The position numbers and the translations under genes were made by a program. From NCBI GenBank assembly GCA_945878995.1, contig CAMCUN010000016.1:1-60197 (forward strand): a DNA stretch of 60,197 nt, given 5' to 3'. Shown piece by piece: positions 2,236 through 30,652 of this stretch; position 1 is the stretch's first letter, and each line of letters begins with the position of its first letter. The DNA comes from Polaromonas sp. YR568. GTDB lineage: Bacteria; Pseudomonadota; Gammaproteobacteria; Burkholderiales; Burkholderiaceae_C. A model generated the notes under the pieces. It saw nothing but the letters and a program-made list of their open reading frames with translations. It had not been told where the DNA came from and searched no databases.

Positions 2236-3177
2236 ATGATCTCTTTGGTCCTTATCGAAAGCATCTTGCAAGCGGCGATTGCCGGCTTGCTGATTGGGTC
2301 CGTTTACGGACTCATGTGCGTTGGCCTCGGTTTGATCTTTGGATTAATGCGGGTCATCAACTTTGCCCAGGGCGAGTTCCTGATGCTGGGCATGTACGTG
2401 ACGTTTTTCTTTTGTACCACGCTGGGGCTAAGTGGCTCGCTCGGCCCGGTGGTGGGTTCTCTGGTGTCCGGCGTGGTGATGTTTGGCCTGGGAATGCTTA
2501 TACACAAGACCTTGCTTGTCAAAAGCACGGGTATTCGTGTCGTGGGCACCGAGGGTGAAGGGCATTACCCCCAACTGATTTTGACGCTGGGTATCTCCCT
2601 GGTTGTGGCCAATGGTGCTTTGATACTGTTTGGCAATGTCCCGCGGACCGTCAGAACACCATTCAGTTCCACGGCCTGGGAATTGGCGATAGGCAACGAT
2701 TTCATGCTGTTCTTCAACAAAGCCAGGGTGCTGGCTTTGTTGGTGTCCATTCTGGTGGCGATTGCGGTTTACCTGTTTGTGCAACGCACCCGCCTGGGCA
2801 AGTCATTGCGCGCTGCCGCAGACAATGCAGCTGCCGCCACTTACATGGGTATTGATGTGGAAAGGGCGCACCGCATTTCATTTGGCCTGGGGGCGGCGGT
2901 CACGGCCGTGGCGGGTGGCCTGATCGCCAGTTATTACCCTTTCCAGCCTTACATCGGTCTAGATTTTGTCGTGATCATGTATGCGGGTGTGGTACTCGGT
3001 GGCTTGGGCAGCATGATTGGTGCTTTCTGGGGTGGTCTGACCATCGGCCTGATTCAGCAAATGTCCACCCTCTTTTTGCCCTTGCAGTTACAAAACGCAA
3101 TGATCTTCGTGGTTTTCCTGTTGATCATTTTGTTCCGCCCGCAGGGCTTGTTTGGCAAAAACGTCGAAAGAGTCTAA
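2236..3177 (+). CDS. livH: Liv-type ABC transporter permease (LivH family)
   Basis: First inner-membrane permease of a branched-chain-amino-acid-type (HAAT) ABC importer. The product has 313 residues, the usual length. It has many hydrophobic helices, the early LIGSVYGLMCVGLGLIFGLM segment, the NFAQGEF motif typical of LivH, and the GGLGSMIGAFWGG segment near the C-terminus. It heads the operon livH, livM-livG fusion, livF, binding protein. The next gene starts on the base after its stop codon. Liv-family importers often carry aromatic acids, amides or urea rather than leucine. The catabolic genes downstream suggest that here, but the substrate is not shown by the sequence. Confidence 0.92.
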   Translation: MISLVLIESILQAAIAGLLIGSVYGLMCVGLGLIFGLMRVINFAQGEFLMLGMYVTFFFCTTLGLSGSLGPVVGSLVSGVVMFGLGMLIHKTLLVKSTGIRVVGTEGEGHYPQLILTLGISLVVANGALILFGNVPRTVRTPFSSTAWELAIGNDFMLFFNKARVLALLVSILVAIAVYLFVQRTRLGKSLRAAADNAAAATYMGIDVERAHRISFGLGAAVTAVAGGLIASYYPFQPYIGLDFVVIMYAGVVLGGLGSMIGAFWGGLTIGLIQQMSTLFLPLQLQNAMIFVVFLLIILFRPQGLFGKNVERV

Positions 3178-4956
3178 GTGAAGAGCGACCAACCGACCAG
3201 TCAGGTCAAAACCATTGTTCTGCTGGGGCTGGTTTACCTGCTGCTGGCCTATTTGATCGATGACAAGTATTACCAGCTGATTCTGACCGTGGTGCCCATT
3301 TGGGCCATGATGGGAATTGCCTGGAATGTCTTCTCCGGTTACTCCGGGCTGGTGTCCTTTGGACATGCAGCATTTTTCGGCATAGGCGCCTACACGGTCG
3401 CCTTGGCAATGATTTACTGGAATTTGTCACCCTGGCTAGGCATCCCTTTGGGCACCTTGGCCGGCGTGGTGGCCGGGGTGTTGGTGGGATACCCAACTTT
3501 CCGGCTTCGCGGGGTGTACTTTTCTCTGGCCATGCTGGCCTACCCGCTCACGCTCTTGTACGTGTTTGAGTGGCTGGGCTACCAAGAAGTCACCATTCCC
3601 ATGAAGCGCGAGGATGGCCCCCTGTACATGCAGTTTGCAAGCCAATACGCTTACATTGTGGTGGGGATTTTGTTTTTGGCCATTGCCATTTACTTGGCCA
3701 GCCGCATTCATGGCTCGCGTTTCGGGCTTTCTTTGACAGCCATCAAGCAAAACGAGGCCGCTGCTGAGGCCGCTGGCATTGACGCGGCACGCTGGAAACT
3801 CAAAGCCATCATGGTGTCTGCTGCGATTGCTGCAGCAGCCGGCGGTTATTACGCGGTGGTTTTGATTGTGGTCACGCCGCCCTCGGTGTTTGGCATGCTG
3901 GCTTCAGCGCAAGCCATGATCATGGCCTTGTTTGGCGGGGTGGCCACCTTGTGGGGCCCGGTACTGGGCGCCTTGATATTGATTCCCTTGTCGGAAATAC
4001 TGCACGCCGAATTGGGCAACCATATTCACGGCATCCACGGCGTGATTTTCGGTCTGGCCATCATTGCCATGATCTTGTATGCGCCCGAGGGCATCTTCCC
4101 CCGCATCCGGGACGCCATCAACAAGCGCCGGGGCTTGGTCACGGTCGCCGATGACTCCCGCCGCACCGTGAATGTGCCGCCGGTAGACGAGAGCCAGTCC
4201 CGCCCTGCCGTCAGCCAGGAGGTGGCCCTGAAAGTGAACCACTTGTCCCGCTCTTTTGGCGGTCTGAAAGCTGTCTCTGACGTCTCCTTTGAGGTCTACA
4301 CCGGCGAGGTGCTGGGCATCATCGGTCCCAATGGGGCGGGTAAAACCACTTTGTTCAACCTGCTCAATGGCTTTATTTCGGCCAATGAAGGCACGGTGCA
4401 GTTCATGGGCAAGGAGTTGGTTGGTCTCAAGCCCAACCAGGTGTGCAGGCAAGGCGTTGGGCGTACTTTCCAGGTGGTCAGGCCTTTCCCACGCCTGTCG
4501 GTCTTGCAAAACGTGGTGGTCGGCGCTTTTGTCTCCCAACCCGACAACGACGAGCTGGCCCATGTGCAGGCGCGTGAAGCCCTGGCCAGGGTGGGCATGC
4601 TGGAACATGAAAAGGTGTTGGCGGGCAGCTTGAACTCGCTGGAATTGCGCCTGATGGAATTGGCCCGCGTGCTGGCCGGTCGCCCCAAACTGATTTTGAT
4701 GGACGAGACCCTGGCCGGCCTGGGCGCCGAAGAGGTTGAGACCATGCTGGCCGTGATTCGCCGTTTGGCAAACGAAGGCCAGACCATCGTGATCATTGAG
4801 CACACCATGCAGGCCATGGTTCGCCTGGCCGACCGCTTTGTGGTGCTCGACCATGGCCAGGTCTTGGCCGTGGGCAAGCCTTTGGAGGTCACCAAAGACC
4901 CTGCGGTGATCGAAGCCTATCTGGGTAAAAAATGGATGGAACATGCTAAGCATTGA
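3178..4956 (+). CDS. fused Liv-type permease and ATPase (LivM-LivG)
   Basis: One 592-residue polypeptide joins the second permease and the first ATPase of the importer. Residues 1 to about 320 are LivM-like (multiple helices and the VSFGHAAFFGIGAYT motif). A hydrophilic linker of about 25 residues follows. From about residue 349 there is an ABC ATPase with Walker A GPNGAGKT (383-390) and a Walker B-like LILMDET (about 505-511). The ABC signature is not LSGGQ but LNSLELRLMELARVLA, and the usual DEP is DET, as in a divergent LivG subgroup. The start is GTG, immediately after the livH stop; the 3' end overlaps livF by 14 bp. LivM-LivG fusions are known but are not the common arrangement. Confidence 0.9.
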   Translation: MKSDQPTSQVKTIVLLGLVYLLLAYLIDDKYYQLILTVVPIWAMMGIAWNVFSGYSGLVSFGHAAFFGIGAYTVALAMIYWNLSPWLGIPLGTLAGVVAGVLVGYPTFRLRGVYFSLAMLAYPLTLLYVFEWLGYQEVTIPMKREDGPLYMQFASQYAYIVVGILFLAIAIYLASRIHGSRFGLSLTAIKQNEAAAEAAGIDAARWKLKAIMVSAAIAAAAGGYYAVVLIVVTPPSVFGMLASAQAMIMALFGGVATLWGPVLGALILIPLSEILHAELGNHIHGIHGVIFGLAIIAMILYAPEGIFPRIRDAINKRRGLVTVADDSRRTVNVPPVDESQSRPAVSQEVALKVNHLSRSFGGLKAVSDVSFEVYTGEVLGIIGPNGAGKTTLFNLLNGFISANEGTVQFMGKELVGLKPNQVCRQGVGRTFQVVRPFPRLSVLQNVVVGAFVSQPDNDELAHVQAREALARVGMLEHEKVLAGSLNSLELRLMELARVLAGRPKLILMDETLAGLGAEEVETMLAVIRRLANEGQTIVIIEHTMQAMVRLADRFVVLDHGQVLAVGKPLEVTKDPAVIEAYLGKKWMEHAKH

Positions 4957-29058: not shown

Positions 29059-29131
29059 GAAGTCAGCTTTAAGGGCGTTATCAAAACCCGGGCTGGCGCC
29101 TAAAGTTCATCCCAACTCCAAAGGATATTTC

Positions 29132-30652
29132 ATGACGCAAGCCCAACCCAGCCAGATCGCTCACTTTGTCGCCGGCCAGCTCACCGCAGGCCAGGGCACA
29201 CGCCGCCAAGACGTGTTCAATCCCGCCACAGGCGCCGTCAGCGGCCAAGTGCTGCTGGCCGACAGCGCCGACGTGAACGCCGCCGTGGCCGCGGCCAAAG
29301 CGGCTTTTCCGGCCTGGGCCGACACCTCGCCGCTGCGCCGCTCACGGGTGATGTTCAAGTTTTTGGAACTGCTCAACGCGCACAAAGACCAGCTGGCCCG
29401 CCTGATCACCGCCGAGCACGGCAAGGTGTTCACCGACGCGCAGGGCGAGGTCACGCGCGGCATTGAGATTGTGGAATTTGCCTGCGGCATCACGCAGCTG
29501 CTCAAGGGCGACTTCACCGACCAGGTCTCCACCGGCATAGACAACTGGACCTTCCGCCAGCCCCTGGGCGTGGTGGCCGGCATCACGCCTTTTAACTTTC
29601 CGGTGATGGTGCCCATGTGGATGTTCCCGGTGGCCATTGCTGCGGGCAACACCTTTGTGCTCAAGCCCAGCCCGCTGGACCCCAGCCCCAGCTTGCTGAT
29701 GGCCGAGCTGCTCCAACAAGCGGGCCTGCCTGCAGGCGTGTTCAACGTGGTGCAGGGCGACAAAGACGCGGTGGACGCGCTCTTGGTCCACCCCGATGTG
29801 CAAGCCATTTCCTTTGTGGGCTCCACCCCCATTGCCAACCACATTTATGAAGTGGGCGCGCGCCACGGCAAGCGCGTGCAGGCCCTGGGCGGCGCCAAAA
29901 ACCACATGGTGGTCATGCCCGACGCGGACCTGGACCAAGCCGTGGACGCCCTGGTGGGCGCAGGCTACGGCTCGGCCGGCGAGCGCTGCATGGCCATTTC
30001 TGTGGCGGTGCTGGTGGGCGACGTGGGCGACAAACTCATCCCCATGCTGGACGAGCGCGCCCGCACGCTCAAGATCAAAAACGGCACCGAGCTCGACGCC
30101 GAAATGGGCCCCATCGTCACGGCGGCCGCGCACCAGCGCATCACCGGCTACATTGATCAAGGCGTCAAAGAAGGCGCCACGCTGCTGGTGGACGGCAGAA
30201 CCTTCCAAGGCGCGCAAGCCGGCGCGGGCTGCGAACAGGGCTTTTGGATGGGCGGCACGCTGTTTGACCACGTCACGCCCGAGATGCGCATTTACAAAGA
30301 AGAAATCTTTGGCCCGGTGCTGTCGTGCGTGCGCGTCAAAGACTTTGCCGAGGCGGTGACCCTGATCAACGCCCACGAGTTTGGCAACGGCGTGAGCTGC
30401 TACACCCGCGACGGCAACGTGGCCCGAGAATTCAGCCGCCGCATCCAGGTGGGCATGGTGGGCATCAACGTGCCCATCCCTGTGCCCATGGCCTGGCACG
30501 GCTTTGGCGGCTGGAAAAAGAGCCTCTTTGGCGACATGCACGCCTACGGCGAAGAGGGCGTGCGCTTTTACACACGCCAAAAAAGCATCATGCAGCGCTG
30601 GCCCGAGAGCATTGGCAAAGGCGCTGAGTTTGTGATGCCGACGTCCAAGTAA
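29132..30652 (+). CDS. mmsA: CoA-acylating methylmalonate-semialdehyde dehydrogenase
   Basis: A 506-residue aldehyde dehydrogenase of the MMSDH class that turns methylmalonate or malonate semialdehyde into propionyl- or acetyl-CoA. The catalytic cysteine is Cys286 in [10 protein letters not shown]. The general-base Glu of ordinary aldehyde dehydrogenases is missing ([11 protein letters not shown], Asn there), as expected for CoA-acylating forms. ATG 29132 has AAGGAT upstream; a frame starting at 29057 overlaps the operator and is rejected. It is divergent from a LysR gene. It could finish valine, beta-alanine or island-pathway intermediates; no mmsB is directly beside it, but a 3-hydroxyisobutyrate-dehydrogenase-like gene lies at 11902. 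Confidence 0.93.

Follow-up and report, generated by a model that had tools for sequence, protein, structure and literature searches.

Degradation of ibuprofen by the ipf system uses a coenzyme A (CoA) ligase, a Rieske-type dioxygenase and a retro-aldolase (as excerpted from PMC9195938). Compared by description, the ipf cluster, with its logic of CoA ligase, dioxygenase and thiolase-fold retro-aldolase, is the system nearest to an island of 25 catabolic genes in Polaromonas sp. YR568 that is analysed here; the island is far larger and additionally contains an importer, lactonases and a flavin monooxygenase (FMO). It lies at 2236-27488 of contig CAMCUN010000016.1 (C16) of the host assembly GCA_945878995.1 (G000; 4.1 Mb, 154 contigs), and the window denotes the whole 60,197-nucleotide stretch of that contig that was analysed. 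Other known systems resemble parts of the island. The steroid side-chain aldolase Ltp2-ChsH2(DUF35) (6ok1) shares the thiolase fold, the adjacent DUF35 gene, both catalytic tyrosines and the lack of a thiolase cysteine with the island pair, but is 29% identical and has the motif YDHF where the island aldolase has YDNF, and no MaoC gene was recognised in the island. Terephthalate 1,2-dioxygenase (TPADO) TphA2A3 shares the alpha and beta subunits and the arginines R309 and R390, whereas its S243, N224 and I290 are replaced in the island enzyme RhdAB and no reductase gene was recognised in the island. Anthranilate 1,2-dioxygenase AndAc/AndAd provides the best NCBIfam models for RhdA and RhdB, which score below the curated cut-offs (444.5 against 750 and 126.4 against 230 bits). 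Finally, clusters of Liv-type importer, aldolase, zinc-type MDR dehydrogenase and SMP-30 genes in Rhizobiales and Burkholderiales (e.g. loci L029, L031 and L032) resemble the island in the importer (55-68% identity), aldolase (65-68%) and zinc MDR (59-65%), but variously contain MmgE/PrpD, CaiB, acyl-CoA dehydrogenase and MaoC genes, with no Rieske or FMO gene in the stretch compared.

We read the island, tentatively and with not quite an even chance of being right, as encoding the uptake and degradation, in one pathway, of a carboxylated ring acid, aromatic or otherwise, that bears an acyl side chain. This would plausibly be an undescribed side-chain-cleaving pathway assembled from known parts: as the original prediction had it, no complete known pathway was recognised, and none matched gene for gene among the families, structures and open-licence PMC papers searched. 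The gene kinds named in that prediction (importer, CoA ligase, Rieske and flavin oxygenases, dehydrogenases, two lactonase folds and the thiolase-fold/DUF35 pair, in blocks on both strands) were recovered by Pfam and NCBIfam scans of 28 chosen open reading frames (ORFs) of the range 2236-30652. Only the aldolase chemistry and the carboxylate binding rest on residue evidence; the remaining steps and their order we infer.

The thiolase-fold/DUF35 pair and the Rieske oxygenase

By sequence, the closest solved relatives of the thiolase-fold protein are 4u4e (a putative thiolase), then Ltp2 (6ok1) and Sal (9myr). In the alignment to 6ok1, its Y293 and Y343 fall on Y294 and Y344 of TcLtp2, which are the catalytic base and acid according to the excerpted text of PMC12329534. 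Both tyrosines, as well as Gly92, are invariant across an 18-sequence alignment (A1), and Gly92 and the YDNF motif occupy the positions of Cys and HDCF in two distant HDCF-type sequences (L072 and L084; 27-29% identity). Among 109 homologous stretches spanning both active-site regions, all 86 with at least 45% identity keep Tyr343 and His338, with the motif YDNF in 81, YDSF in four and the Ltp2-type YDHF in one; Tyr343 is present in nine of the 23 more distant stretches. The DUF35 partner, encoded by the adjoining gene, carries a zinc ribbon of the form C-x2-C-x10-C-x2-C (C4 motif). The domain scans of the island genes, which did not extend to the rest of the genome, detected no MaoC hydratase domain (cf. 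the ChsH1-ChsH2 or Shy complex).

A structure model of the aldolase, built from an 18-sequence alignment, has a mean predicted local distance difference test (pLDDT) score of 80.6, with values below 50 at residues 1-16, 124-151 and 336-341, the last stretch being near Tyr343. The top Foldseek matches of this model are 4u4e, Ltp2-DUF35 and Sal-DUF35, but because true thiolases also score high, the fold alone is not decisive and the residues decide. A plain (SCP2-type) thiolase was rejected on the basis of the active site, in which the cysteine nucleophile and the HDCF motif are absent. The protein is best read as an Ltp2-type, DUF35-dependent retro-aldolase, a reading supported at the residue level; the retro-aldol chemistry of the original prediction thus gains support from Y293, Y343, Gly92 and the C4 motif of the partner.

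Many relatives of this protein are labelled acetyl-CoA acetyltransferase at source. Because all 86 stretches with at least 45% identity keep the retro-aldolase tyrosine and lack HDCF, this label is doubtful and probably names the wrong reaction for the close group. At least 3425 proteins match the aldolase at E <=1e-60 (8000 candidates scored; active sites checked in part of them). If our reading is true, many genomes encode a carbon-carbon lyase module that goes under a wrong name and is frequently accompanied by an importer of its own, and the island is a concrete gene set for tracing what this module degrades. A second thiolase-fold paralogue, with YDAF and a histidine at the Tyr343 site, lies near the YDNF aldolase at loci L029-L033, L040, L041 and L044; several of these loci list a second DUF35-like gene beside the paralogue, possibly forming a heteromeric pair.

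The closest solved structures of RhdA are 7vju, TphA2 and NagG; the protein groups with the aryl-carboxylate cluster, and its iron-sulfur cluster and iron ligands are invariant in alignment A2. R309 and R390 of TphA2 correspond to R322 and R404 of RhdA, which are kept in 19 of 19 aligned sequences, whereas other TphA2 positions differ (N224 to Asp and S243 to Asn, both part of the signature proposed in PMC9060491, and I290 to Thr). In the portion of PMC9060491 that covers these sites, R309 is described as conserved throughout the aryl-carboxylate cluster, and N224, S243 and R390 as restricted to TPADO among five characterised enzymes. Given this lineage and the conserved arginines, we read the RhdAB substrate as a ring compound with one, possibly two, carboxylates, in line with the carboxylated ring substrate originally predicted. 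Fer2 proteins gave 21 matches elsewhere in the host genome and none on C16 (Rieske-type ferredoxins were not searched), so the electron partners may be shared.

A rearranged copy and the wider distribution of the island genes

The strongest evidence that the genes belong together is the conservation of the set through rearrangement in another genome. The comparison within Comamonadaceae that the original prediction had proposed showed that 22 of the 25 island genes recur, 68-92% identical and in changed order, in the metagenome-assembled genome (MAG) Jr-14may18-109 (G825), which supports one catabolic unit more than chance. The stretches compared were 18 kb of its contig C5 and all of contig C11. 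The former carries sdr3, sdr4, cmd, sdr1, aldolase, duf35, znadh, livH, livMG and a partial livF, including the aldolase locus nearest to that of the island (L025, 88%), together with additional hydantoinase A/B, TctC and Ldh2 genes; the latter carries sbp, mdr1, abh, mbl, lig, hibadh, smp30, rhdA, rhdB, sdr2, fmo and the lipocalin gene, with rhdAB-sdr2 coming after hibadh-smp30. An exact overlap of 41 bases, at a site matching livF, connects the end of C11 with the start of C5, and the two contigs are very probably one region, although a repeat could mislead. In the stretches compared, aldh and cupin have no match and mdr2 reaches 44%. We rejected the notion that hydantoinase A/B genes had replaced the Rieske block in this nearest relative, given that C11 of the same genome carries the Rieske genes; HyuAB is an addition. 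The G825 region also contains genes for a protein of the arylmalonate decarboxylase family (L187:3161-4147) and for a flavoprotein of the FAD_binding_2 type (L187:635-2134); neither was seen in the window, and both are possible clues to the substrate.

A near-identical aldolase was found, among 101 genomes, in the host and in the sister assembly G045 only (next best, 47%); the G045 contig is collinear with window positions 9447-22060 at 94% and terminates within sdr2. Farther afield, neighbourhoods were compared at 80 of 205 confirmed aldolase loci, with flanks of up to 10 kb, many of which end at contig ends, and a gene was counted if it matched at no less than 40% identity over no less than 60% of its length. 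By this measure, znadh is present at 27 loci, duf35 at 25, aldh at 14, livH and livF at 12 each, livMG and smp30 at 11 each, sbp at 10, cmd at nine, lig and hibadh at seven each, mbl at four, and sdr1, sdr3 and mdr1 at two each; the rest occur once or never.

Whole-genome searches of the 35 aldolase-bearing genomes yielded rhdA relatives of at least 60% identity in four (G825, G826, G827 and G830), followed by matches of 54% (G839) and 53% (G853), and no match at 1e-60 in eight Rhizobiales-type aldolase genomes. An order-wide sample contained an rhdA orthologue, at 69-72%, in four of 398 genomes other than the host (4/35 versus 4/398, p = 0.002, kinship not corrected), and in a sample of 369 genomes from the class, no other match exceeded 49%. 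Relatives of sdr3 (56-58%) lie near rhdA at three of the four other Rieske loci, the fourth being on an 8 kb contig. In the 13 genomes searched for fmo, relatives were detected at 96% in G045, 73% in G825, 53% in G827, 47% in G830 and, as a partial match, 62% in G826, and matches of 37-39% in two of the eight Rhizobiales-type genomes. The aldolase, Rieske and fmo relatives of G830 are on three contigs of 75-87 kb, whereas the G826 and G827 contigs are too short for linkage to be judged. Thus, the Rieske, FMO and aldolase genes associate in one group, and each also occurs without the others.

Several further observations were made at these loci. Over 7.2 kb, the aldolase locus of G827 matches that of the Burkholderiaceae MAG L026 with 81% DNA identity, and the G827 contigs (L027, L189 and L205) have 60-63% GC; this genome is probably a betaproteobacterium and its record title, Candidatus Fonsibacter lacus, probably wrong. 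In G830, a Baikal-deep MAG, a row of Rieske alpha, beta-like ORF, AMP ligase, thiolase-fold and DUF35-like genes lies on contig C3 (L188:14843-19901), and relatives of its Rieske and thiolase genes are about 2 kb apart on a plasmid of Sulfitobacter dubius. A recurring cassette on plasmids of Variovorax SRS16 and Sphingobium EP60837 (L154, L157 and L158) combines SDR, 3-hydroxyisobutyrate dehydrogenase (HIBADH)-family, carboxymuconolactone decarboxylase (CMD) and/or MmgE/PrpD, and acyl-homoserine lactone (AHL)-lactonase-like genes; for hibadh, cmd and mbl, the cassette matches the island at 44-64% identity. On plasmids, the surroundings of the thiolase, fmo, lactonase and cmd genes yielded only clusters without a named function.

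A possible pathway and its alternatives

In the pathway that we propose, the Liv-type ABC importer would take up the substrate, which RhdAB, judging from its lineage and the two conserved arginines, would anchor by a carboxylate and hydroxylate on the ring, with SDRs oxidising the product. The CoA ligase would activate the acyl side chain, and the thiolase-fold/DUF35 pair, the step with residue-level support, would cut a beta-hydroxyacyl-CoA by retro-aldol chemistry, yielding an acyl-CoA plus a ketone or aldehyde to be processed by MDR, SDR and aldehyde dehydrogenase enzymes. The FMO may form a lactone or ester that the two lactonase-fold hydrolases would open, and the HIBADH- and PcaC-family enzymes would presumably finish the breakdown. 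The beta-hydroxyl could come from the Rieske enzyme, as in an ipf-like route, or be present in the substrate already, or result from an SDR or HIBADH enzyme acting first.

Several lines of evidence weigh against such a single pathway. Among the scanned island genes, no ring-cleavage (extradiol) dioxygenase, ferredoxin or reductase was recognised. Enoyl-CoA hydratase and acyl-CoA dehydrogenase were likewise lacking among them, which leaves the beta-hydroxyacyl-CoA without an evident origin other than the oxygenase itself. The arginines of RhdA suggest a free carboxylate, not a CoA ester, at the Rieske site. Within the compared flanks, rhdA and rhdB are found at none of the 80 aldolase loci; this zero is weak evidence because L025 also scores zero though its Rieske gene is on the adjoining contig. 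In 31 of the 35 aldolase genomes, rhdA is below 60% or missing; among these 31 are three Rhizobiales genomes whose aldolases reach 67-70%, and also the sister assembly G045/G824 (best Rieske match 43%, also in G824, the genome of L024), which is 82% complete and in which the island contig is cut. The Rieske-orthologue genomes G562, G605, G666 and G478 contain no aldolase above 51%.

A more ambitious version of the one-pathway reading, which we consider unlikely to hold as a whole, is that one natural, carboxylated ring compound, served by an ABC importer of its own, is processed in succession by the aryl-carboxylate Rieske enzyme and by DUF35 retro-aldolases that form a new and widespread YDNF subfamily. 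In that case, aldolase and importer would make up a core module for side-chain removal in general, coupled by lineage to Rieske and FMO here and to acyl-CoA dehydrogenase or MmgE elsewhere, and the whole would be an undescribed aerobic pathway.

The alternative that survives best, possible though doubtful, is that two neighbouring pathways share one insertion hotspot: one, with transporter, ligase and retro-aldolase, would act on an acid of aliphatic or alicyclic type, and the other would be a Rieske-SDR route for an aryl carboxylate. Many of the alpha- and betaproteobacterial loci compared carry the importer/zinc MDR/SMP-30/ligase/aldolase group without Rieske genes, in various combinations with acyl-CoA dehydrogenase, CaiB, MaoC and MmgE/PrpD, and G562, G605 and G478 carry RhdAB, along with a relative of sdr3 and a gene of a Liv-type transporter, without the aldolase. 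However, both blocks are found together in the window and, across the 41-base overlap, in G825, where they are differently interleaved (hibadh-smp30-rhdAB-sdr2), and both co-occur, on separate contigs, in G826, G827 and G830.

An upper pathway of the ibuprofen type appears improbable. Under this scheme, a 2-arylalkanoic acid would be converted to its CoA ester, the Rieske enzyme would dioxygenate the ring at the carbon carrying the side chain, and the products released by the retro-aldolase would be an acyl-CoA and a catechol. The activities predicted for the island are those described for ipf, with the Rieske alpha and beta subunits and the thiolase-fold/DUF35 pair present together, but its Rieske enzyme falls in the cluster acting on free aryl carboxylates, and the carboxylate-binding arginines argue, although not decisively, for a free acid. 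Furthermore, the extradiol dioxygenase is missing from the genes recognised in the island, which has about 20 extra genes, and the G830 row is nearer to ipf in gene kinds, with a thiolase-fold protein just 31% identical to that of the island. A pathway for steroid, bile-acid or diterpenoid side chains, like those of other DUF35 aldolases, is very improbable: Ltp2 and Sal are the closest characterised relatives of the aldolase, but the motif is YDNF instead of YDHF or YDCY, and neither a hydratase partner of the MaoC type nor an acyl-CoA dehydrogenase was recognised in the island (the search did not extend to steroid ring-degradation genes in the rest of the genome). Within the island, we also rejected a full protocatechuate, terephthalate or anthranilate pathway, whose key genes were either unrecognised or scored under their cut-offs; the search for these genes covered the island only.

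Gene content, borders and insertion site

The island genes form five blocks: importer and mdr1 (plus strand); hydrolase, lactonase and ligase (minus); hibadh-smp30-fmo-lipocalin-aldh (plus); mdr2-cupin-rhdA-rhdB-sdr2-cmd-sdr1-aldolase-duf35-znadh (minus); and sdr3-sdr4 (plus). In the long minus-strand block, several genes overlap or nearly touch, the widest gap, between sdr2 and cmd, being 181 bp.

Table 1. Genes of the island and its flanks; percent identities "in G825" are protein matches to the Comamonadaceae MAG Jr-14may18-109.
Gene	Predicted product	Coordinates	Strand	Evidence and remarks
mnmA	left backbone flank	692-1870	-	PF03054
livH	LivH-type ABC permease	2236-3177	+	PF02653; 88% in G825
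livMG	fused LivM permease-LivG ATPase	3178-4956	+	PF02653 + PF00005; 89% in G825
livF	LivF-type ATPase	4943-5650	+	PF00005; 88% over 130/235 residues in G825:C5
sbp	periplasmic substrate-binding protein	5650-6921	+	PF13458; 83% in G825
mdr1	MDR-type, quinone oxidoreductase-like	6929-8032	+	start probably ~7016; PF00107; 78% in G825
abh	alpha/beta hydrolase	7996-9060	-	start uncertain; PF00561; 85% in G825, 66% in G830
mbl	metallo-beta-lactamase fold, AHL-lactonase-like	9259-10062	-	PF00753; 92% in G825
lig	acyl-CoA ligase	10080-11792	-	PF00501; 78% in G825
hibadh	HIBADH-family	11902-12798	+	PF03446/PF14833; 89% in G825
smp30	SMP-30/gluconolactonase-family	12795-13682	+	PF08450; 70% in G825
fmo	FMO-like flavin monooxygenase	13754-15514	+	Pfam matches from residue 160; 73% in G825
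lipocalin	lipocalin-like small protein	15560-15952	+	PF13924; 79% in G825
aldh	aldehyde dehydrogenase	16009-17493	+	PF00171; no match in G825 stretches compared
znadh	zinc-type MDR dehydrogenase	17521-18561	-	PF08240/PF00107; accompanies aldolase elsewhere
duf35	DUF35/ChsH2-type OB-fold partner, 149 aa	18558-19007	-	PF12172/PF01796
aldolase	putative thiolase-fold retro-aldolase (YDNF, Tyr343)	18997-20172	-	start probably 20136; 88% in G825
sdr1	SDR	20144-20899	-	PF13561; 80% in G825
cmd	CMD-family	20955-21374	-	PF02627
sdr2	SDR	21556-22362	-	PF13561; 85% in G825, beside rhdB in both
rhdB	Rieske oxygenase beta	22381-22851	-	PF00866; matched by profile only
rhdA	Rieske oxygenase alpha	22848-24140	-	start probably 24101; PF00355/PF00848; 90% in G825
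cupin	mandelonitrile-lyase-like	24214-24651	-	PF07883; NF049940 112.1/140 bits, below cut-off; no match in G825 stretches compared
mdr2	MDR-type oxidoreductase	24730-25710	-	PF00107; 44% best match in G825
sdr3	SDR	25948-26733	+	NCBIfam; relatives also flank Rieske orthologues elsewhere
sdr4	SDR	26748-27488	+	PF13561; 82% in G825
nudix	right backbone flank, outside island	27497-28018	-	
lysR	right backbone flank, outside island	28070-29023	-	
ALDH	right backbone flank, outside island	29057-30652	+	

Two further family assignments fall below the NCBIfam cut-offs: mbl scores 59.8 bits against the AiiA model (cut-off 375), and cmd narrowly misses the PcaC model TIGR02425 (153.4 against 155.7 bits). 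The FMO contains, ahead of its FAD domain, about 160-170 residues without any Pfam match.

Codon-position composition and the domain scans delineated the 25 genes at 2236-27488 and three more up to 30652. The accessory DNA spans approximately 1871-27496 (25.6 kb), with a GC content of 0.606 compared to 0.631 in the remaining window. No tRNA was found in the window, no integrase among the scanned window genes, and no direct repeats of 20 nt or longer pairing the two island ends.

The flanking genes mnmA and pntAA were found in 55 and 51, respectively, of 61 genomes (the host included), and the interval between them was compared across 10 same-genus genomes, in none of which did an island gene match at more than 32% within that interval. 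Nine of the 10 have nudix, lysR and ALDH at this locus, at 66-86% identity and without the island, and the tenth, G003, has only the NUDIX gene. The range originally proposed, 2236-30652, therefore stands up to 27488 but not at its right border, since 27497-30652 is backbone. In G025, G029 and G035, the start of mnmA is separated from the nudix stop by about 20-40 bp, so that the island is absent and the flanks are intact; in the remaining seven same-genus genomes, approximately 1.8-14.6 kb of different DNA lies between mnmA and nudix. The mnmA/nudix junction (window 1870-27497 and L171-L181) is an accessory-gene hotspot.

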